A DNA stretch of 44,536 nt, taken from assembly GCA_902767725.1 (NCBI GenBank), contig CACXIM010000054.1:1-44536 (forward strand), given 5' to 3'. The translations under genes and the position numbers were made by a program. The stretch's first letter is position 1; every line of letters begins with the position of its first letter. Shown here piece by piece: positions 11,497 through 30,672 of the stretch. The notes below the pieces were generated by a model, which saw nothing but the letters and a program-made list of their open reading frames with translations, did no database searches and was not told the DNA's origin. Origin of the DNA: an uncultured Bacteroidia bacterium. Lineage in GTDB: Bacteria > Bacteroidota > Bacteroidia > Bacteroidales > F082.

Positions 11497-13028
11497 ATGG
11501 CAAAAAACATCGAAGAAATCAGAGCCGCGTTGGCCGAATACGGCATCACCGGCGCAAAAGAAATTTACTATAACCCGAGCTACGAAAAGCTCTTCAAGGA
11601 CGAAATGGATCCCGCCCTGACCGGCTACGACAAAGGCGTGTTGACCGAACTCGACTCCGTCAACGTGATGACCGGCATCTACACCGGACGTTCGCCCAAG
11701 GACAAATACATCGTCATGGATGCCAAGTCGAAGGACACCGTGTGGTGGACCACCGATGGCTACAAGAACGACAACCACCCGATGAGCGAAGAAGTCTGGG
11801 CACAGGTGAAAGACCTCGCCAAGAAACAGCTCAGCGGCAAGAACCTGTATGTGGTCGACGCATTCTGCGGCGCCAACAAGGACACCCGCATGGCCGTCCG
11901 TTTCATCATGGAGGTGGCATGGCAAGCCCATTTCGTGCTCAACATGTTCATCAAGCCCACGCCTGAGGAACTGGCCGACTTCAAGCCCAACTTTACCGTT
12001 TATACCGCCTCTAAAGCCAAGGTCGACAACTACAAGGAACTCGGCCTCAACAGCGACACTTGCGTTGCCTTCAATGTCAGCAGCCGCGAACAAGTGATTC
12101 TCAACACCTGGTATGGTGGCGAGATGAAGAAAGGCATGTTCTCGATGATGAACTACTACCTGCCGCTGCAAGGCATCGCCGCCATGCACTGCTCCGCCAA
12201 CACCGACATGAAGGGCGAAAACAAGGCGTCTTCAACTTCGAAGGCGGCTGCTATGCCAAAGTCATCAACCTCGACAAGGAGAGTGAGCCTGACATCTACA
12301 ACGCCATCAAGCGCAATGCCCTGTTGGAAAACGTCACTGTCGATGCCAATGGCAAGATCGACTTCAAGGACAAGAGCGTGACCGAGAACACCCGTGTCTC
12401 CTACCCCATCGAGCACATTGAGAAAATCGTGAAGAACGTGCGTCCTATCTCGGCTGGTCCTGCTGCCAAAAACGTCATCTTCCTCAGCGCCGACGCCTTT
12501 GGCGTGCTGCCTCCCGTCAGCATCCTGACGCCGGAGCAGTGCAAGTACTACTTCCTGAGTGGTTTCACCGCCAAGTTGGCCGGCACCGAGCGCGGCATCA
12601 CCGAGCCTACACCTACCTTCAGCGCCTGCTTCGGCCAAGCCTTCCTTGAATTGCACCCAACCAAGTATGCCGAGGAACTTGTGAAGCGCATGGAACAAAG
12701 CGGTGCCAAGGCTTACTTGGTGAACACCGGCTGGAACGGTACGGGCAAACGTATCTCCATTAAGGACACGCGCGGCATCATCGACGCCATCCTTGACGGT
12801 AGCATCGAGAAAGCCCCGACCAAGATGATCCCGTATTTCAACTTTGAAGTGCCGACCGCATTGCCGGGCGTCGATCCAAACATCCTTGACCCGCGCGACA
12901 CCTATGCTGACAAGAACGTCTGGGAAGAGAAAGCCAAAGACCTCTCCTCGCGCTTCATCAAGAACTTCGAGAAGTTCACGACGAATGACGCTGGCAAGGC
13001 TCTGGTGGCTGCTGGCCCGAAACTGTAA
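11497..13028 (+). pseudogene. pckA: Phosphoenolpyruvate carboxykinase (ATP), P-loop segment deleted and frame shifted
   Basis: PckA interconverts oxaloacetate plus ATP and PEP plus CO2. The N-terminal part ([17 protein letters not shown]..., [39 protein letters not shown]) is intact in one frame to about 12225; that frame stops at 12381. The C-terminal part resumes in another frame at [16 protein letters not shown] (from 12225) and is intact to 13028, with [18 protein letters not shown] and [17 protein letters not shown]. Family knowledge places the Walker A loop (GLSGTGKTTLSTDP) and the LIGDDEHGW metal/nucleotide motif exactly at the junction; both are absent. About 33-36 residues are lost, with a deletion length of 1 modulo 3. 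As read it cannot bind ATP. A real deletion or an assembly error cannot be told apart here. Confidence 0.9.
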
Positions 13029-13079: not shown

Positions 13080-13108
13080 GAGCCGTTCCGATTGGGGCGG
13101 CTCGTTTT
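13080..13108 (+). terminator. Likely intrinsic terminator after pckA, within repeat copy 1
   Basis: GAGCCG (13080-13085) pairs with CGGCTC (13098-13103) around a 12-base loop with two further C-G pairs, followed by GTTTT. It forms the head of the 54-base repeat that recurs at 14852-14905. Confidence 0.6.
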
Positions 13109-13133
13109 GTGTTATCCTTGCGCATTGTCAAAA
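13080..13133 (+). repeat. 54-base direct repeat, copy 1
   Basis: Matches 14852-14905 at 51 of 54 positions in the same orientation. The two copies bracket the AT-rich YD-repeat gene. The last part (TTGCGCATTGTCAAA) is shared with further partial copies at 13234 and 13267. Confidence 0.85.
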
Positions 13134-13309
13134 ATGGAATGAAAAAAGCCGACATTGCTGTTGCCGTTTCTTTGGTACACCTTTTTGTGGACCACCAATT
13201 GGTGTACCAAATTGTTGCAAAACGTCATTATCCCTGCGCATTGTCAAAGATTTTGGAGGTCTATGGTTGCGCATTGTCAAAAACGGCATAAAAAAAGCCG
13301 ACATTGCTG
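13118..13309 (+). repeat. Pair of 43-base direct repeats
   Basis: 13118-13160 and 13267-13309 are identical except for changes in a 7-base middle part. Both end in AAAAAAGCCGACATTGCTG. In the second copy the end is part of a minus-strand terminator hairpin. Confidence 0.8.
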
Positions 13310-14851: not shown

Positions 14852-14905
14852 GAGCCGCTCCGATTGGGGCGGCTCGTTTTGCATTATCCTTGCGCATTGT
14901 CAAAA
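14852..14905 (+). repeat. 54-base direct repeat, copy 2 (contains a terminator-like hairpin)
   Basis: 51 of 54 positions match 13080-13133. Its first part forms GAGCCGC (14852-14858) pairing with GCGGCTC (14869-14875) followed by GTTTT, so it could insulate the promoter at 14942. Confidence 0.85.
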
Positions 14906-14941
14906 CCAACATCTTTTCCCTCCACATTGTTATTATTTTTG

Positions 14942-16560: not shown

Positions 16561-17685
16561 TTAGTTCAGCATGACCGGCATGAGCAGCATGAGCAGGTCT
16601 TCGGCCTCGTTCTCGTTTTCGACGGGCGTGATGATACCGGCACGGTTGGGAGCCGACATCTCAATCTTCACCGTCTCGGAGTCGAAGTTGCTCAGCATCT
16701 CTTGCAGGAAGCGCGAGTTGAAACCGATTTCCATGTCATCGCCTTCGTAGCTGCACGTCAGGCGTTCCTTAGCTTCGTTGTAGAAGTCGATATCCTCGGC
16801 GGTCAAGGTGAGCTCTTGTCCCGCAATGCGGAAACGCACCTGGTGTGTGGCCTTGCTGGAGAACACAGCCACACGACGGATGGCCGAGAGGAAGGTCTGA
16901 CGGTCGATAGTTAGCTGGTTGGGGTTCTGCTTCGGGATGACCGCGTCGTAGTTGGGATAGCGGCCTTCGATAAGGCGGCAGATCAACTGATAGTCGCCAA
17001 ACGTAAACGAAGCATTGGTCTTGTTGAACTCGATGCGAACCGGCTCGTCGGCCAAGGTAGCCAAGATGCTCTTCAGTTGGTTGATGGGCTTCTTCGGCAT
17101 GATGAACGAGGCCACCACGTCCGACTTCACATCCATCCTTCTGTAGCGCACCAACTTGTGGGCATCGGTTGCGACGAAGGTCAGGAAGTCTGCTGTCATC
17201 TCCATCAACACGCCCGACATGATGGGACGAATCTCGTCCATACCCGTGGCGAAGACGGTCTTCTCGAAGCCCTTGGCCAGCACATCGGCAGGAATCTCCC
17301 AAACCGAAGTATCAGCCATGGCAGGCAGCTGCGGGAACTCGTCGCTCTTGTGACCAGCGAGTTTGTAGCGGCCTTCACCGGCAATCAGTTCTACAGCCAA
17401 AGTGTTGTTGTCAACCGAGACCGTAATCGGCACATCAGGGAAGTTCTTCATGATTTCCAAGAGTAGACGAGCGGGAATCGTCACTTCACCCGTACCATCA
17501 ACCATGTCAGGAGTGATGCATACGGTCATGGTCACATCAAGGTCGGAGGAAGTGATTTTCAGCTGTTTCTCGTCCAGATGGAACAGGAAGTCGTCCAAGA
17601 TGGGCAAGGTGTTCTTAGAGCCAATGACACCGCTAAGGGCTTGCAGGCTCTTTAATAATTTAAGGCTAGATACTATGAATTTCAT
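16561..17685 (-). CDS. dnaN: DNA polymerase III subunit beta (sliding clamp)
   Basis: The clamp encircles DNA as a dimer and tethers the polymerase. The 374-residue length and the N-terminal MKFIVSSLKLLKSLQALSGVIGSKNTLPILDDFLF, then SSDLDVTMTV, and the C-terminal LLMPVMLN are characteristic, with three clamp folds of about 120 residues. The ATG at 17685 overlaps the TGA of the upstream 1569-residue gene (ATGA), so dnaN translation may depend on that gene. No dnaA or recF is adjacent, which is common in Bacteroidota. A bidirectional terminator follows. Confidence 0.97.
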   Translation of the reverse strand: MKFIVSSLKLLKSLQALSGVIGSKNTLPILDDFLFHLDEKQLKITSSDLDVTMTVCITPDMVDGTGEVTIPARLLLEIMKNFPDVPITVSVDNNTLAVELIAGEGRYKLAGHKSDEFPQLPAMADTSVWEIPADVLAKGFEKTVFATGMDEIRPIMSGVLMEMTADFLTFVATDAHKLVRYRRMDVKSDVVASFIMPKKPINQLKSILATLADEPVRIEFNKTNASFTFGDYQLICRLIEGRYPNYDAVIPKQNPNQLTIDRQTFLSAIRRVAVFSSKATHQVRFRIAGQELTLTAEDIDFYNEAKERLTCSYEGDDMEIGFNSRFLQEMLSNFDSETVKIEMSAPNRAGIITPVENENEAEDLLMLLMPVMLN

Positions 17686-20600
17686 TGCGTTATATGTTTT
17701 TTATTCATTCTATTTTGAAGTGGTAAAAGTACAAATAATTGGAATATGAAGGACATTTTATCGAAAACGACATACTGGAATTGTTTATCATCTTTGGTAC
17801 GGGTACGGTTCTTCTCCTTCGTGTCAGACAACCGCTGGTTGATGTCGGAGAAGGTGCAATGCACCTGGAACTGCCCGTCGCCCGAGTTGTAGTTGAGATA
17901 AGCCTGGAACATGTCGTCTTGGAAATAATAGGTGATGTTGCCCAAACGGCGGTCAAACACGACACAACCCGTGACGTATTTGTTGACGACATGGCTGCCG
18001 AAGTTGCCCAAACCGATCTTGCCTACCGAAACAAAGGCGTGCATCTTGTCATTCCATACCATCTTCAAGTCTGGAATCACGATGGTATTGCAATAGAAAT
18101 CAGAAGAAGATTCTATTTGCGGATAACCGCCAGCCAGTTCAATGTTCATACGCAATTCTTCCACCTTTTCCTCTGAAGTCTCCGAACGATAATAAGGCAG
18201 GAAATTGGTCTGTGTCAAGTCGATGGACTCGCCAGAGATGTTGGCAAACACCTCAGCCATGGCTTGCATTGCTGCATCATCGAAAACGGGTGCATTGAAC
18301 ACATTGATGCCCTTCAAAGTGAGACTGTCGTTGGGATATTGCGTGTAGTCGCCATGGACGATAAAGGAGGCCAAAGGCGTATCGAAACCCAAGTCTGTGG
18401 TACCATGCCCATTGATGACACCACGAGAATCAAGTTCAAGTTGGGTGTCGTATTTTGTTTCGTCCGTAACCACAAAACGCAGGCTGTCGGCATCAAACCA
18501 CAAAACACCATTCATAGGTTCGGTATCATCAAGGTCTTTCCGTCCTTCTTTAGGCGTTAGGAACGAGCCGAAGTAGCCACCGTCGATAGCCAACTCATAA
18601 TAGAGACCGTTGGTCATCCTCTCATCCGATTCGCGTATCCGTTCCACGTCAATTGGTATGCGAATTGAGGTGGGATCGATACGTGTGGCCGAAACGAACC
18701 AATGGTTGAGGGCGGCGATGGTATCTTGGGCAAAAGGCTCTGTCGCTGGGTTGAAGTCATCTTCGACTATAGGCATTTCCATATCAGTGGTGTCTCTCAG
18801 AGCCTCGTCCGTCTCGACAAGTAGGGAGTCTTCAACATGCTCCACGACAACCACCTGAGGCTCTTCAAACGCCAATAAAGCAAACTTTCCATCGTAATAA
18901 CCCAACTCCTCTGAAGCATCCAAAGTCAATCTACCTTGGAAACCAAACTGCGTGTTCAGCTTGAAGTCAGCGGTATCCGCAATGTGGGCATAACCATGCG
19001 TGACGCCTCCAACAGGAATGATGGTGTCCATCCGAATAGGTGTACTGGCACCATCGGCATTCACATAGTCCCAAGTGCCTTGCGCATCGTAGTAGTTGCG
19101 GCTGTGGATGTTCACCACGGCATCCTTATAAAGGTGGAAGAGATTCAGTGTGTCGGCCAGCAGGTCGCCATTCACTGGTTCCAACTTCGATTCCGCATTG
19201 ATGTCGACATCATGCATATAGGGAAACACCGCAGCATCGGCCACACGGATGATCTTCACATCGTGGGCATGGATGACATAGTTGGACATGTCATATTCCG
19301 CACTCATGCTATAGAACTGCAATGAATCTTGCTCGGGCACCAGGGAGATAAACTTTGAAGCGTTGTTGTGCACGGCAAGCAACTCTTCGTGGGTAGTGGC
19401 AGTAGCATAGTCACCAAATGATTCCACAGGATTATATAGATGCAGGCTGTTGGTGGCCATGTCCCATTCGGCTTCCTTCAAGGAACAAATGTATTGGTTC
19501 ATGGGGAAGTCAAGGCTACTATTTTGATCAAGGTAGTCGTATTTCACCTTTTGTGCGTCAAAGTCGACATTAGCGCGGTAATTGGTCGCTGAGAAAGCGA
19601 TATTCGACGTATCGGCGGAATACAAGAGGAAGTTAGCTGAGTCAGCCACAAAGGTTTTGGAATCCAATGCGAAATGGTCGGAATCGAACTCGGTCAAGCC
19701 GAAACGCATCTTACCGTCAGCCTCATAGCCATCGGGCGATAGTATGGTCTTTCCCGAGAAATATGTGTCGCCATACATGCAGATGGGCTTGTCTATAGTC
19801 TCCGTGGTCAGCTCTGGCAACCGGATATCCCATTTCAGCCGCAAGGCATCAGCCGAGGCCATAGGAAAGCCAGTGCCATCTTCGCGTGGCACCATCTTAA
19901 ACTGGTTGGTGATAGCCGTGACTGAATCCAAGTAGAACATGAATTGGTCAGAGTTGAAAGCGGAAGTCTGATAGTCAAGCTGGCCTTCACCAAAGAATCC
20001 AGTCCTTGAGAGGAAAACCTTATTGTGAAAACGACCCAAGTCACCGTACAAAGGATAGGAAGCCGTTTCGTCATCACCTATCTGATGCACAAATCCCAAG
20101 GAGAAGTCTTCCATAACCACCAAGGGCTGAACGATGTTGGGCATGATGCCACCCGACACCAGCTCACCATCGAAACTCACTTTTCGCATCGAAAGGTCGT
20201 TCAAGCTATCGACCACAAAAGGATAAACACTGTAGTAAAACTTTCCATCCAAGTCCTCGGCTGTCATAACCGAATCAACGTTGCCTGGATGGAACACCCC
20301 ACCATTGATTTTCCTATAAAACTTGAAACCTTCGGCTTCGCTGTGGAAAATAGGATAATCTGGCGTCTCATACCGGCTCGACTTGTTATCACCATGGTCT
20401 ATATCCAGACGGCCTTTCAGTTTCTCCAAAGTGCCATCGACAGGAATGATGTGATTATCGTAACGGGCATAGAAACGCAACGAGTCCACTTTCTTCATAT
20501 TAATGGAGAAATCTTCATAGTTGAACTCGCTATCTTTGGTGAAAAACTCGAACATTCCCGCAAGAATGCCACCCGAAAACTTGAAATTCTGGTGTCCCGT

Positions 20601-22391
20601 GAAGGTGATACGTCCGAAGTCGGGAACGATGACCACACGTTTGCGGTCGCTCAATGAAATAGCCGAGCCATTCACGCCTTCAATTTGGCTTGTAATGCCA
20701 AACACCAACAAGTCGTTGGTATACAAATCAAGACTGAGATTAGGCTGACGGTTGGTAGTGCGGGTATGCAGTTTGATGACATCGAAGTCAATGGCCTCGC
20801 GGAAGGAGTCAACCACGTCGAAGAAACGTGGCAATGCCGTAGCCCATTTCGTCTCCGAATCATATTCCACATAGCCCTCTGCCTGCAAACGAAGCAACAA
20901 AGCAATGACCTGCTCGATAGGATAACCCAAATAGGAAGCCAAGTCGCCCACGGCAAACTTCACCTGACGGTCCACATTGTCGAAGCCCTGCAAGAATTTC
21001 TCGATACGAATCATGGGATGCGCATGATCCATGCCTTGCAGACGCTTGAAATCGTCGTGACGGAAATAATTCACCGAAACCACATCGCCCTCACTCACTG
21101 GGTTGACACCTTCTAACCTCCTAAAATACACTTGGTTGTCATCAATGTTCCAATACATGGATTCGAGGAAGATGTCTACGCCATGGAAATAGTCATGGAA
21201 GGGGCCATCCCCGAAGTCTTTTTCGGAACGGAAAGCCGTCATTTTCCTAGTCTTATTGTCATATCGGAATCCAATGTCGTTGTGATAAAGAGAATCCATC
21301 TCAAGGCCAGTGACCGAGTCAGCTAAATAAACGCGCAAGGCAACATTATCCGAAACCAACAATTCGTCCATCGACATCAGAAAACGTTGGGCTTGCACCC
21401 TCATGACTTCCCGACCCTCCTGACGGAAATGAAAAACTGCCTTTTTGTTGACACCGCCAAACACATCCACCTGGTTGCCCATCATGCCAATACCGCCCTC
21501 AAAGTCGATATTACGCATTAAGTTAGATATGGCAAAATCAGAACGGTAGGATTTCACACGCGGGAACATTGACTTCTCGTTGGGTGCATTCACCAACACC
21601 TTATCCTCATAACGACACAAAATGTCCTGGTTGAAGTGACGGCGTTCGTGAAAAACGACTGAGTCAATGGCATATTCGGAGCGACTGAGATCGAGCTCAT
21701 AGAAATCAGGCAGGGTGACATACACAATCTCGGGCGATATGTCGAAACGCGACCAATCCGCCCGTCCCCCCATGCCTTCCCAACGGTTGTCATCAAGATA
21801 ATACACGCCCTTGGTGTTCTTGAGCAGCGATTCATCCTTTTGCGATACCAAAGCCAAGGTCCCATCGATGGACAGCTCAAACTTTTCCTTCGACGGAAAA
21901 CTCCACAAGGCTTCTCGAAGGGTCCATTTGGAGTTGCCTTTGGCCGACAAGACCTTGTCGACAAAGATGTCACGGCAAGAGGCAAGGTATTTATCCACAC
22001 CGTTCAACGACTTCTGCGTCTTGGCATCGGTGTAGCAGAGCCAGTTATTCACGTCCTTGTGGGTAAATCCAGCAGTTGGAATCGTCTGAACAACCTCAAC
22101 GAAATTAAAGATGTTAGCGTATATTTTTCCGCCCGATCGGGCATGCAAGAGCTCGCAAAGACGCATAATCATTTCGGCCTCCTGATTGTCGTAGTAGCTG
22201 TCCCAAGACCCTTTGAACGACTGCATTATGGCAGCAGCCTCATCACGGTCCTTTTTCACGGTAGAGGAGTTCAGATATGATGAAAGCTTGTCATAGAAAG
22301 CGTCTTTTTCGGTTGGGAAAAACGTCTGCGCAAACGACGGGACAAAGCTCACGAAAAGTGCAAAAACGACAATCAGGATTCCTTTCTTCAT
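17682..22391 (-). CDS. Giant exported protein of unknown function, coupled to dnaN
   Basis: A ~1569-residue protein, starting at either of two adjacent ATGs (22394/22391), with a signal peptide (MKKGILIVVFALFVSFVPSFAQ). There is no T9SS sorting domain, lipobox or C-terminal barrel signature. The sequence is rich in aromatic and acidic residues with many short beta-strand patterns (DLYTNDLLVFGI, KFYRKINGGVF, NGVLWFDADSLRFVV and similar) from ~450 to 1500, while residues ~25-300 look more helical (YDKLSSYLNSSTVKKDRDEAA). A winged-helix-like patch (VGDLASYLGYPIEQVIALLLRLQ) occurs near 500. I do not recognise a family; it resembles large periplasmic beta-rich proteins of Bacteroidota. It lies 29 bases after prmA and overlaps dnaN by 4 bases. 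Confidence 0.85.
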   Translation of the reverse strand: MKKGILIVVFALFVSFVPSFAQTFFPTEKDAFYDKLSSYLNSSTVKKDRDEAAAIMQSFKGSWDSYYDNQEAEMIMRLCELLHARSGGKIYANIFNFVEVVQTIPTAGFTHKDVNNWLCYTDAKTQKSLNGVDKYLASCRDIFVDKVLSAKGNSKWTLREALWSFPSKEKFELSIDGTLALVSQKDESLLKNTKGVYYLDDNRWEGMGGRADWSRFDISPEIVYVTLPDFYELDLSRSEYAIDSVVFHERRHFNQDILCRYEDKVLVNAPNEKSMFPRVKSYRSDFAISNLMRNIDFEGGIGMMGNQVDVFGGVNKKAVFHFRQEGREVMRVQAQRFLMSMDELLVSDNVALRVYLADSVTGLEMDSLYHNDIGFRYDNKTRKMTAFRSEKDFGDGPFHDYFHGVDIFLESMYWNIDDNQVYFRRLEGVNPVSEGDVVSVNYFRHDDFKRLQGMDHAHPMIRIEKFLQGFDNVDRQVKFAVGDLASYLGYPIEQVIALLLRLQAEGYVEYDSETKWATALPRFFDVVDSFREAIDFDVIKLHTRTTNRQPNLSLDLYTNDLLVFGITSQIEGVNGSAISLSDRKRVVIVPDFGRITFTGHQNFKFSGGILAGMFEFFTKDSEFNYEDFSINMKKVDSLRFYARYDNHIIPVDGTLEKLKGRLDIDHGDNKSSRYETPDYPIFHSEAEGFKFYRKINGGVFHPGNVDSVMTAEDLDGKFYYSVYPFVVDSLNDLSMRKVSFDGELVSGGIMPNIVQPLVVMEDFSLGFVHQIGDDETASYPLYGDLGRFHNKVFLSRTGFFGEGQLDYQTSAFNSDQFMFYLDSVTAITNQFKMVPREDGTGFPMASADALRLKWDIRLPELTTETIDKPICMYGDTYFSGKTILSPDGYEADGKMRFGLTEFDSDHFALDSKTFVADSANFLLYSADTSNIAFSATNYRANVDFDAQKVKYDYLDQNSSLDFPMNQYICSLKEAEWDMATNSLHLYNPVESFGDYATATTHEELLAVHNNASKFISLVPEQDSLQFYSMSAEYDMSNYVIHAHDVKIIRVADAAVFPYMHDVDINAESKLEPVNGDLLADTLNLFHLYKDAVVNIHSRNYYDAQGTWDYVNADGASTPIRMDTIIPVGGVTHGYAHIADTADFKLNTQFGFQGRLTLDASEELGYYDGKFALLAFEEPQVVVVEHVEDSLLVETDEALRDTTDMEMPIVEDDFNPATEPFAQDTIAALNHWFVSATRIDPTSIRIPIDVERIRESDERMTNGLYYELAIDGGYFGSFLTPKEGRKDLDDTEPMNGVLWFDADSLRFVVTDETKYDTQLELDSRGVINGHGTTDLGFDTPLASFIVHGDYTQYPNDSLTLKGINVFNAPVFDDAAMQAMAEVFANISGESIDLTQTNFLPYYRSETSEEKVEELRMNIELAGGYPQIESSSDFYCNTIVIPDLKMVWNDKMHAFVSVGKIGLGNFGSHVVNKYVTGCVVFDRRLGNITYYFQDDMFQAYLNYNSGDGQFQVHCTFSDINQRLSDTKEKNRTRTKDDKQFQYVVFDKMSFIFQLFVLLPLQNRMNKKHITQ

Positions 22392-22423
22392 CAAATTATC
22401 AATTGTAAATTCTAAATTATCAA

Positions 22424-23251
22424 TTACTTAACAAACTCTGCAGCCACCCAGTTATTGCGACTCAGGTGACGACAATAATGCAAGCCGAGACGGTCCGCTT
22501 CTGCCTTAATGCTTTCCAAATCCTCAGTGTAGAAACCGCTGAAGAAGATATGGGCATCGGGGCGCATGGCGTCGACATAATGGTGCATGTCGCGCAACAG
22601 AATATTGCGGTTGATGTTAGCCAACACCACATCATATTGACCTTGAATGGCCAAGGCATCGCCTAGCACAACTTCGATGTCAGAGATGCCATTCAACTCA
22701 CAGTTGGTAAAGGCGTTGCGATAGGCCCATTCATCATTGTCGATAGCTACTGTTCGAGCAGCACCCAGTTTTTTGGCCAAGATGGCCAAAACAGCAGTAC
22801 CGCTGCCCATGTCGAGAACTTCTTTGCCTTGGAAATCCGTCTCCAGCATGAGTTGGATGATTTGTGCCGTCGTCTCATGGTTGGCAGTGCCAAACGACAT
22901 CTTGGGCTCGATGACAAGATCGAATTCAAAGCTTGGGTCAGGCTCGTGGAAAGGTGCGCGCACACGGCAGCGTTCGTTCACCACCACGGGCTGATAAGAG
23001 GCCTCCCAAAGCTCGTTCCAGTCCTTGTCGGGCATCTCCTCCACGTTCAGCAGACGGATGTCAGTGAATGACGGCTCCAGCAAGAGGCTCTCCACAGCCA
23101 TATCATCACGGTAGTCCTCCGAGCAATAGGCCTTCAGGCATCGATCCTCGTCCATAAACGAGTCAAAACCTATTTCGGCCAGCATCGTCACCAGCATATC
23201 GTGCTGAATGTCGGATGAAGGTGCAGTGAAACTATATTCAATTGTTTTCAT
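22424..23251 (-). CDS. prmA: Ribosomal protein L11 methyltransferase
   Basis: SAM-dependent enzyme that methylates L11. The 275-residue product from the ATG at 23251 (MKTIEYSFTAPSSD) has the PrmA N-terminal domain, the substrate loop RAPFHEPDPSFEFDLVIEP then KMSFGTANHETT, SAM motif I VLDMGSGTAVLAILAKKLGA (~145-165) and the LANINRNILLRDM motif. An upstream extension to 23305 uses a non-ATG start and is rejected. It is downstream of tpiA with a REP-like element in the 137-base gap and is 29 bases ahead of the giant exported protein. Confidence 0.95.
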   Translation of the reverse strand: MKTIEYSFTAPSSDIQHDMLVTMLAEIGFDSFMDEDRCLKAYCSEDYRDDMAVESLLLEPSFTDIRLLNVEEMPDKDWNELWEASYQPVVVNERCRVRAPFHEPDPSFEFDLVIEPKMSFGTANHETTAQIIQLMLETDFQGKEVLDMGSGTAVLAILAKKLGAARTVAIDNDEWAYRNAFTNCELNGISDIEVVLGDALAIQGQYDVVLANINRNILLRDMHHYVDAMRPDAHIFFSGFYTEDLESIKAEADRLGLHYCRHLSRNNWVAAEFVK

Positions 23252-23287
23252 TTTCTTTCTTTCAAACAAAACTTTCAAAACCTCCTT

Positions 23288-23344
23288 TAGTGTCGTGGCA
23301 CCCAACCAGAATGCCGCCGGAAAGCTGTCAGTTGGCGCTTTCCG
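23288..23344. repeat. REP-like double-hairpin element, copy A
   Basis: Between prmA and tpiA. It resembles the element at 27992-28048: both have GGCACCCAAC, a GCCGCC/GCC block and a second hairpin (here GGAAAGC 23319-23325 with GCTTTCC 23337-23343). The flanking CAAAACC words are also similar, so the homology is longer than the hairpins. Confidence 0.65.
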
Positions 23345-23388
23345 AATCTTCCCAAAAATGTTTTATCGGTTTGGTCGGTTTTGTGATA

Positions 23389-26882: not shown

Positions 26883-27950
26883 CTAATTAATCCTCACTCT
26901 CGGGTCAATAATTCCATAAATGATGTCTACCACGATATTCACGATAATCAGCATGACCGCAATCAGAAGCACCGCGCCCATGATGACGGGGAAATCGTAT
27001 TTGTCCAAGGCATCGACCACCACCACACCGATACCTTTCCAGTCGAAGACGTATTCCACGAAAACCGCGCCAGCCAACAATGAGGCAAACCAGCCCGACA
27101 CCGCGGTCACCACGGGATTCAAGGCATTGCGCAAGGCATGGACGCAGATGACACGCCAAGGCTTCAAACCCTTGGCACGAGCAGTGCGCACATAGTCCAT
27201 CGACATGGCTTCAAGCAAGGAAGTACGCGTCAGCTCTGTCACCACGGCCAAAGGGCGCATGCCCAATGTCAAGGCGGGAAGGATGAGGTTGCGCAAACTG
27301 AGGAACTCTCCCCTGCCGTATTCATCAACGGTGTAGAGGCTGCCCGTCATGCTCAAGCCCGTATAGTGTTCGAGCAGGAAGCCAAACACCCATGCCATGA
27401 GAATGGCGGCAAAGAACGAGGGCAACGACATGCCTATGGTGGTGACGAACAAGGTCAACTTATTAATGAATTTTGTGTTGATGACCGCTGCCAAAATGCC
27501 GATAATCAAGCCCAAGACCATGGCAATAGAGATAGACACTGCCGCCAACAGCAAGGTGTTAGGAAAAGCCTCTCCCAAAATATCGGAGACCTTGCGTTTG
27601 CTTTGGTACGACATGCGCAGATAAGGTCCTTTCAGCACGATAGCAGTCGCTCCAATGGTGGCAAGTTTGGCATAGTGTCCGATTTTGTCAAGCTTTTGCG
27701 TTCCTTTGGAGACATTGTAGAACGAAATAGGAACCAAATCATTGAGATAGTCGACATATTGTTTGCCAAGGCTTTGGTTCATGCCGAGTTCCTCGCGGAT
27801 GGCATTCACCGACTCTTGGTCGGCACGTTGACCGAGCATCATCTGGGCAGGGTCGCCGGGAAGGATGTTGAACAGGAAAAACACCAGCGTTGCGACGCCC
27901 CAAAGCACCGCTATACCGTACAGCAACTTCCTTATAATGTAGGCTCCCAT
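26883..27950 (-). CDS. ABC transporter permease, DppB/OppB family
   Basis: A 355-residue inner-membrane protein (start ATG 27950, MGAYIIRKLLYGIAVLWGVA) with about six transmembrane helices and the EAA loop (SMDYVRTARAKGLKPWRVICV then HALRNALNP) that docks on the ATPase. The NILPGDPAQMMLGQ segment near residue 35 is typical of oligopeptide/dipeptide permease B subunits. No partner permease (DppC), ATPase or binding protein is near, so its transport partner must lie elsewhere. It is 17 bases upstream of the thioesterase and downstream of a REP-like element. Confidence 0.92.
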   Translation of the reverse strand: MGAYIIRKLLYGIAVLWGVATLVFFLFNILPGDPAQMMLGQRADQESVNAIREELGMNQSLGKQYVDYLNDLVPISFYNVSKGTQKLDKIGHYAKLATIGATAIVLKGPYLRMSYQSKRKVSDILGEAFPNTLLLAAVSISIAMVLGLIIGILAAVINTKFINKLTLFVTTIGMSLPSFFAAILMAWVFGFLLEHYTGLSMTGSLYTVDEYGRGEFLSLRNLILPALTLGMRPLAVVTELTRTSLLEAMSMDYVRTARAKGLKPWRVICVHALRNALNPVVTAVSGWFASLLAGAVFVEYVFDWKGIGVVVVDALDKYDFPVIMGAVLLIAVMLIIVNIVVDIIYGIIDPRVRIN

Positions 27951-27991
27951 AATGTCACAAAACAATCAAAACCCGCAAAACCTTAAAGCAA

Positions 27992-28048
27992 GGTGTGGCG
28001 GCACCCAACTGGGTTGCCGCCCGAAAGCCTGCCGGTTGGCGGCTTTCG
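27992..28048. repeat. REP-like double-hairpin element, copy B
   Basis: GGCGGCA (27997-28003) with TGCCGCC (28015-28021) forms the first hairpin. CGAAAGCC (28022-28029) with GGCTTTCG (28041-28048) forms the second. It is homologous to copy A at 23288-23344. It lies in the gap between the DoxX and permease genes and may weaken or end transcription there. Confidence 0.7.
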
Positions 28049-28089
28049 TAACTTCTACTTATGTTTTGTTTGTTTTGCAAGTTTTGTGA

Positions 28090-29337
28090 TTAATTAAACA
28101 ACTTCTCCAACTTCTCCCCTTGAGGGAAGTCCACTGAGCTCCACTTGTCCTTCACCAAGCCATTGTCGAGCCAGATGAGTCCAGGATTGCTACGTACTAT
28201 CGGCTTGATTTCCAGCTCGTCGGCGTAATACACTTCATAAAGGAAACTGTACTTCTCGCGCAGTTGTTCCACATATTCCGGCTCATTGGCAACCGTCCAA
28301 ATCACAATAAAGCCATGTTTCTCAGCGGCTTCCGTAATCACTCGAACCTTCTCCCATTCTTTCTCGGTCACCTTGGTCAAGTCGTGCGAGGTGAACATCA
28401 GCAGGTTGTCGGTGGTCAGGATGGATTCCGTGATGTCGTTGCCGGCTTCATCCAAGGCGGAGAAACCGAGGAAATTGGCGCCACCTTCCGTCCTTTGGTC
28501 GACAAACTCCCATTGCGACATCCACACCGAGTCGTTCCATGGATAGTTGGGCGAGATGTATTCCTTGGTCTCACCAGTGGCTTTGTTTCTATAAATCAAA
28601 TAAATCTTGGTCTCTTCAGTGGGTTCAGCTTTCATCTGTTTGCCCACCTTCCAATTCATGAAATCAATGACTGGCAAATGACGGTAGTTGTATATTTCGA
28701 AACCCAAAAACAGCCCTGCAAAAAGGAATCCAACGAAGAGTTGCACTGCAATTCCTATCGGGTTCCTCAATTGCTTGTTGTTCAGAATCAGAGGCACCAA
28801 CACTGCGTCAATGACCAGATTCTTATAGAACGTTTGCCAGTTACTCATCTTGATGGCCGTACCAAAACAGCCACAGTCGGGCACCAGGTCATACAAAGCG
28901 TCGAAGAGCGTAGTGATGGTAAAAAACAGCATCAGCAATGTTGCACCCAAAACTGCAAGTCGTGGTAGTATCTTGGTCATCAAGCAAATGCCGACCAGGA
29001 ACTCTGCCAAGATCATGCCGAAAGCTAACACCAAGGCAAAGTCATTAAGCCAAGTCATGCCGTAGACCGAAAGATAGTCCAGCATTTTGTATTTCGTCCC
29101 CAAGGGGTCAACACCCTTGGTGAAACTGCTGAAGATGAACAAGGCACCTACAAGCAGACGGCAAATGGTTAAAGCAGTTTTGTTGTATTTCTTGCCGTAG
29201 ATGAATGCAATGACAAGGTTAATCAGCAGGATAGCGAGAAACCACAAATGGTAAGCAGGCAGATAATAGATGGCCACCGCAGAGGCCAAAGCCAAAACAA
29301 TACTGATCCAGGGCAGAATAGCTTTTCGTTTCTTCAT
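28090..29337 (-). CDS. DoxX/MauE-like membrane protein with a thioredoxin-like C-terminal domain
   Basis: A 415-residue protein. Residues ~8-215 hold about seven or eight membrane helices with a DoxX/MauE-type core (CRLLVGALFIFSSFTKGVDP) and a DCGCFG motif typical of quinone- or thiol-linked oxidoreductases. After a periplasmic stretch, residues ~230-405 look thioredoxin-like (LLMFTSHDLTKV..., FIVIWTVANEPEY) without a CxxC pair. In Bacteroides the same family lies between DUF1599 and tpiA, and here it directly follows DUF1599 by 8 bases. The likely role is in envelope redox chemistry; the substrate is unknown. Confidence 0.88.
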   Translation of the reverse strand: MKKRKAILPWISIVLALASAVAIYYLPAYHLWFLAILLINLVIAFIYGKKYNKTALTICRLLVGALFIFSSFTKGVDPLGTKYKMLDYLSVYGMTWLNDFALVLAFGMILAEFLVGICLMTKILPRLAVLGATLLMLFFTITTLFDALYDLVPDCGCFGTAIKMSNWQTFYKNLVIDAVLVPLILNNKQLRNPIGIAVQLFVGFLFAGLFLGFEIYNYRHLPVIDFMNWKVGKQMKAEPTEETKIYLIYRNKATGETKEYISPNYPWNDSVWMSQWEFVDQRTEGGANFLGFSALDEAGNDITESILTTDNLLMFTSHDLTKVTEKEWEKVRVITEAAEKHGFIVIWTVANEPEYVEQLREKYSFLYEVYYADELEIKPIVRSNPGLIWLDNGLVKDKWSSVDFPQGEKLEKLFN

Positions 29338-29924: not shown

Positions 29925-29936
29925 AAACTTTTTTCA

Positions 29937-30672
29937 ATGCTGCAACTCAATTCATTGCGAGCGGATGCTTGCTGACGGTGCAGACTTTATTGATATTGGT
30001 GGCTGCTCCACTCGTCCCAACAATGCCATCGCCACAGAACAAGAGGAGACGGAACGCGTCATCCCCATCCTGAAAGCCGTCAAGACGTCCTTCCCTAATG
30101 CCTTGATTTCCATCGACACTTTCCGCAAAAACGTGGCTGAGGCATGCATGGCAGAAGGTGTCCACCTCATCAACGACATCTCAGGCGGACTTTTCGATAA
30201 AGAAATGCTGCCATTCATCGGCAAAAACCATATCCCCTACGTGATGATGCACTGTGTGGGAACGCCAGAGACCATGCACCAGTATGCTCTCGGTGGCGAC
30301 ATCCACCAAACCGTATTGGAGTTTTTCAGGCAGCAATGTGAAGTTTTGGCAGCATACGGCGAGCAGCAAATCATCCTTGATCCAGGCATCGGTTTTGGAA
30401 AGAGCCTTGAAGCCAACTATCAGTTGCTCAACAATTTGAATAGATACCGCTACAATAGTTTCCCAATCCTCATCGGCATTTCGAGGAAGTCGCTGATCAA
30501 CAAGGTACTGCATACCACCCCCGACACTGCCGAGAACGGGACTACGGTCCTAAACACCATCGCCTTGCTCAATGGGGCTGACATCCTGCGCGTCCATGAT
30601 GTGAAAAATGCGCGCGAGGCCATCGAATTGGTCGGTACTTTTTGTAATTTTGCACAAAATTTGGAATCATGA
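29937..30672 (+). pseudogene. folP: Dihydropteroate synthase, 5' segment deleted
   Basis: DHPS makes dihydropteroate from pABA in folate synthesis. The C-terminal ~80 per cent is intact: GADFIDIGGCSTRP, ISIDTFRKNV, INDISGG, DPGIGFGKSLEANYQLL, LIGISRKSLINK and RVHDV. The N-terminal TPDSF-type motif and first strand are absent. A frame opening at ATG 29937 (MLQLNS...), in the expected position behind the promoter, closes after 12 codons; the conserved frame begins ...CERMLADGADF just upstream of ATG 29965. This is best explained by a deletion of ~100-130 bases (length 2 modulo 3). A 235-residue product from 29965 is possible but would lack a pterin-site loop. It overlaps cdaA by 4 bases. Confidence 0.82.

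Follow-up and report, generated by a model that had tools for sequence, protein, structure and literature searches.

Has the organism behind this stretch of DNA lost the ATP-binding loop of its PEP carboxykinase, as the title of an earlier note held, or was the gene broken when its genome was put together? PckA catalyzes the reaction PEP + CO2 -> oxaloacetate, with formation of ATP, and were the loss real, a presumed succinate fermenter would be without its usual PEP-carboxylating step. The window (the whole stretch analysed, 44,536 nucleotides) is contig C54 of a 3.06-Mb draft genome of 153 contigs (completeness 79.61%, contamination 5.76%), which was probably built from mixed-community short reads. 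The window contains no N letters, and no RNA family reaches its gathering threshold there. From comparison of these sequences with those of relatives, we conclude that the broken pckA is very probably an artefact of assembly.

As assembled, pckA occupies positions 11497-13028 on the forward strand and changes frame at 12222-12225, so that a single uninterrupted frame is absent. The 5′ part (11497-12222), in the frame of the ATG at 11497, encodes residues 1-242 and matches positions 2-209 of the 465-position profile of ATP-dependent PEP carboxykinase, PF01293 (E = 6.3e-70, 236.6 bits). The 3′ part (12225-13028) continues in the next frame, coding to 13025 with the stop codon ending at 13028, and matches positions 246-463 (E = 1.1e-98, 331.4 bits); both halves exceed the gathering cut-off of 26.5 bits, and neither contains a stop. 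Alignment to relatives puts the break after base 12222 or 12223 (an ambiguity of 1 base), where the window has 1532 bases of gene against 1632 in intact same-genus copies. The difference is exactly 100 bases (1 modulo 3) and takes away residues 243-276 in intact-protein numbering, including GLSGTGKT, the P-loop, and the LIGDDEHGW motif; both are absent from the assembled window copy. The earlier note had thus read the locus itself accurately: a frame break with a join near 12222-12227, loss of the Walker A loop and LIGDDEHGW, a loss length of 1 modulo 3, and no extra stops in the rest.

A real and very recent 100-base deletion in the pckA of this strain would leave the enzyme dead, with C4 metabolism running through another PEP- or pyruvate-carboxylating enzyme or through cross-feeding. 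Several features of the locus are compatible with such an event: The junction is clean, the contig carries no ambiguity, and neither a second copy nor a stray piece was found in the genome. In the PF01293 search of the window's own genome, only two places exceed the cut-off, and these are the two halves of the window gene, so the second pckA copy that the earlier note proposed for comparison was not found. One candidate, on contig C19, was rejected: It scores 23.9 bits genome-wide (cut-off 26.5), reaches 26.6 bits in a scan of its 59 residues by themselves, and covers only profile positions ~184-239. A genome search with the missing segment and its flanks, taken from G093 (among the matches listed, the intact relative whose pckA matches most strongly, with 92%-94% identity in the gene), finds no segment elsewhere; the flanks match at the pckA site, and the 22 other matches listed span at most 28 bases (E at least 0.12).

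Against a real deletion stands the finding that the loss in pckA has company. We compared the whole window with the syntenic stretches of seven relatives, listing deletions that appeared in comparison with three or more of these, and found three losses private to the window: at 12223 (100 bases, against six of the seven relatives), at 17767 (85-86 bases, five of seven), and at 29952 (113 bases, three of seven). The second (17767-17770, reverse strand), of the same size in all five relatives, removes the final codons and the stop codon of the ORF at 17685-22427 (reverse strand) together with a little spacer. The 3′ end is intact in G093; the ORF as assembled reads 1581 amino acids with a false tail, and it has no Pfam match. 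The third (29952-29953, forward strand) is exactly 113 bases (2 modulo 3) in the three relatives and removes codons ~6-43 of folP, including NVTPDSF; in the other relatives, the upstream spacer is different or lies outside coverage. Here, too, G093 has the intact reading. In the window, folP (29926-30669, forward strand) is frame-broken after ~5 codons, its likely start ATG (~29937) lies in a different frame from the remainder, and PF00809 is matched only from position 26. Slippage between direct repeats was considered as a cause and rejected, the homology at the three window junctions being 0-1 base when judged against the relatives' sequence.

A fourth loss lies on another contig of the same draft. 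Near position 53577 of contig C17 (~13577 of locus L190), 106 bases are missing inside an ORF relative to G093, G111, and G105, and 121 relative to G082; the junction can be placed no better than to within ~11 bases and hence gives no reading on repeat homology. The four losses are thus all of 85-113 bases, and each is private among the relatives compared. Three other 20-kb stretches (on contigs C3, C5, and C7) show no private loss at the level of match tables, by which these and the C17 stretch were judged and in which losses inside a single match escape; of these, the C17 site alone was aligned. The C5 stretch does differ by 100-101 bases from G105 and G111, but since G093 agrees there with the window's genome, we regard the difference as natural variation. 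Its existence between these species is a point for a real deletion in pckA.

Since the draft has other clean losses of about this size, we favor an artefact over a dead gene. A real deletion in pckA would require separate, recent, and nearly equal deletions in folP and in two more ORFs of this draft, and we consider it unlikely. The claim that the organism lost its ATP-binding loop is unsupported, and of the two readings that the earlier note left standing, a dead gene or a wrong assembly, the evidence favors the latter. The note was also right that the loss in pckA takes out exactly the nucleotide site, but the apparent targeting looks coincidental: elsewhere, it is the beginning of folP, the end of an unnamed ORF, and an ORF on a different contig that are affected. 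The four losses could also be read together as biology, in a gut Bacteroidales-type lineage that sheds pckA, folP, and other core genes by ~100-base strain-level deletions and is sustained by the metabolites of its neighbors; this we hold to be distinctly improbable.

A two-species chimaera at the junctions was also considered: Identity to G093 falls from 98%-99% to 85% across both 17767 and 29952, but only from 97% to 93% across pckA. Intergenic stretches of ~120-150 bases at 23267-23387 and 27950-28104 have matches at many sites spread through related genomes, in the manner of a small dispersed repeat. Downstream from pckA, the intergenic stretches 13080-13309 and 14852-14932 carry direct repeats around TATCCTTGCGCATTGTCAAAA.

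The window is richer in such losses than its relatives. When each of the seven relatives was taken as the subject of the same test, the single loss of at least 40 bases was one of 46 bases in the pckA of G030. Losses of equal size in the range of 20-26 bases occur in G019 (24-26 bases) and G082 (20-21 bases); losses whose size varies between relatives occur in G093, G082, G105, and G111, whereas G092 has none. By aligned length, there are three losses of at least 40 bases in ~33 kb of the window and one in ~194 kb of the relatives (P = 0.011), with a 40-base limit that was picked after the list was seen. For losses of at least 20 bases, the counts are three and three, a weaker contrast (P = 0.044).

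What remains of pckA looks fully constrained at the sequence level. Outside the lost part, dN/dS between the window copy and 13 relatives is 0.025-0.048, inside the control range of 0.015-0.081 (median 0.038) given by the 78 pairs among those relatives. Only two residues are private to the window copy against the other 46 aligned copies, and by these measures neither relaxed selection nor further decay is seen in it. A gene that is not drifting is what either an assembly artefact or an event of very recent date would give; the earlier note's qualification that the event must be "recent if real" is borne out, and the invisibility of relaxed selection counts against a real deletion. Strong constraint on both halves would also be expected of a split yet working PckA, or of recoding across the junction. 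Frameshifting, however, is unable to restore residues 243-276 with the P-loop and LIGDDEHGW, and we give this explanation practically no credence.

Relatives of the genus retain the segment almost throughout. The alignment to related PckA that the earlier note had recommended comprises 47 same-genus copies (leaving out the more distant G001, G009, and G027 and partial pieces of G010, G012, and G035), and the segment is whole in 45; the window copy is without its 100 bases and G030 without a different 46. In a DNA search of 99 genus genomes, including the window's own, the matches listed include pckA in 91; in the nearer relatives, the stretches that match bases 1-727 and 727-1532 of the window gene are separated by 100 additional bases. 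Among the matches listed, a pckA match is present in 44 of the 46 genus genomes with completeness of 90% or more and contamination of 5% or less, which again speaks against a real deletion. The same junction appears, among the matches listed from these 99 genomes, only in the window's own, and no other genome of its species was seen there. At the DNA level, 51 records of a plasmid collection match the pckA region, and none covers >80% of the query. Among the public loci with related pckA (L035-L114) are contigs titled Clostridia, Lachnospiraceae, and Eubacterium whose PckA second halves are 83%-90% identical to the window's, perhaps through gene transfer or mislabelled drafts.

The broken copy in G030 (446-2029 of locus L115, contig C33 of that genome) raises the question of whether the P-loop region is a true deletion hotspot in the genus, by which pckA is switched off repeatedly at strain level. 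Its 46-base loss overlaps the window's, has other ends, and also breaks the frame; LSGTGKT and LIGDDEHGW are retained, in the broken frame. Two broken copies out of 47, both in the P-loop region and with differing ends, are what a hotspot might leave. Both, however, belong to drafts of limited completeness (79.6% and 85%), neither shows relaxed selection in the rest of the gene, and the contigs of other drafts also begin or end in this segment, which points instead to difficulty in assembly. We judge a hotspot highly improbable.

The contig ends are informative in their own right. Among 80 public loci with the second half of pckA, 13 have a contig start no more than 3 kb upstream of this half. 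The lost segment contains four of the 13 starts, against 0.44 expected (P = 0.0007); L043, whose contig begins shortly past the segment, is outside this count. Within the genus, contig ends inside bases 727-827 of the intact gene are found in G008 (end at 808), G010 (end at 812), G035 (start at 806), and G100 (start at 795). Others lie outside the segment, in G112 (start at 563), G119 (start at 660), a second contig of G008 (start at 538), and further contigs of G010 (start at 982) and G100 (end at 888). Since contig starts and ends cluster in the lost segment, assemblers evidently stumble there. Sequence common to several community members is weak as a cause: The conservation of the segment is moderate (81st percentile among the gene's 100-base windows), and exact shared words are barely above average.

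An artefact of this kind could arise simply. A short stretch would fail to assemble, the two neighboring contigs would be placed end to end, and the gap of ~100 bases would then be closed or its Ns dropped, in an assembler step that we infer. On this reading, the PckA of the living cell would be ordinary and functional. The case carries a warning, in that drafts of uncultured organisms may contain clean, frame-breaking losses of ~100 bases, as in pckA and folP here, which look like the disappearance of an active site and would lead automated metabolic reconstruction to call both steps absent in error.

In comparison with known systems, the window gene resembles PckA in both its halves, which match the PF01293 profile as given above, and differs from it in the shifted frame and in the residues lacking at the shift. 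The intact protein of G093 aligns with a relative of solved structure, 1YTM, over residues 10-543. In Phocaeicola vulgatus, two predicted PEP carboxykinase genes are reported (PMC11405475), compared with the one pckA found in the window's genome. The closest parallel to the break itself is with the spurious pseudogenes described in PMC11017572, where many pseudogenes in bacterial assemblies are traced to assembly errors. The two cases share genes whose frames are broken by assembly and, on our preferred reading, not by evolution; they differ in that the abstract there concerns frameshifts and internal stops in general, whereas here the losses are clean, of ~100 bases each, and in the draft of an uncultured organism.
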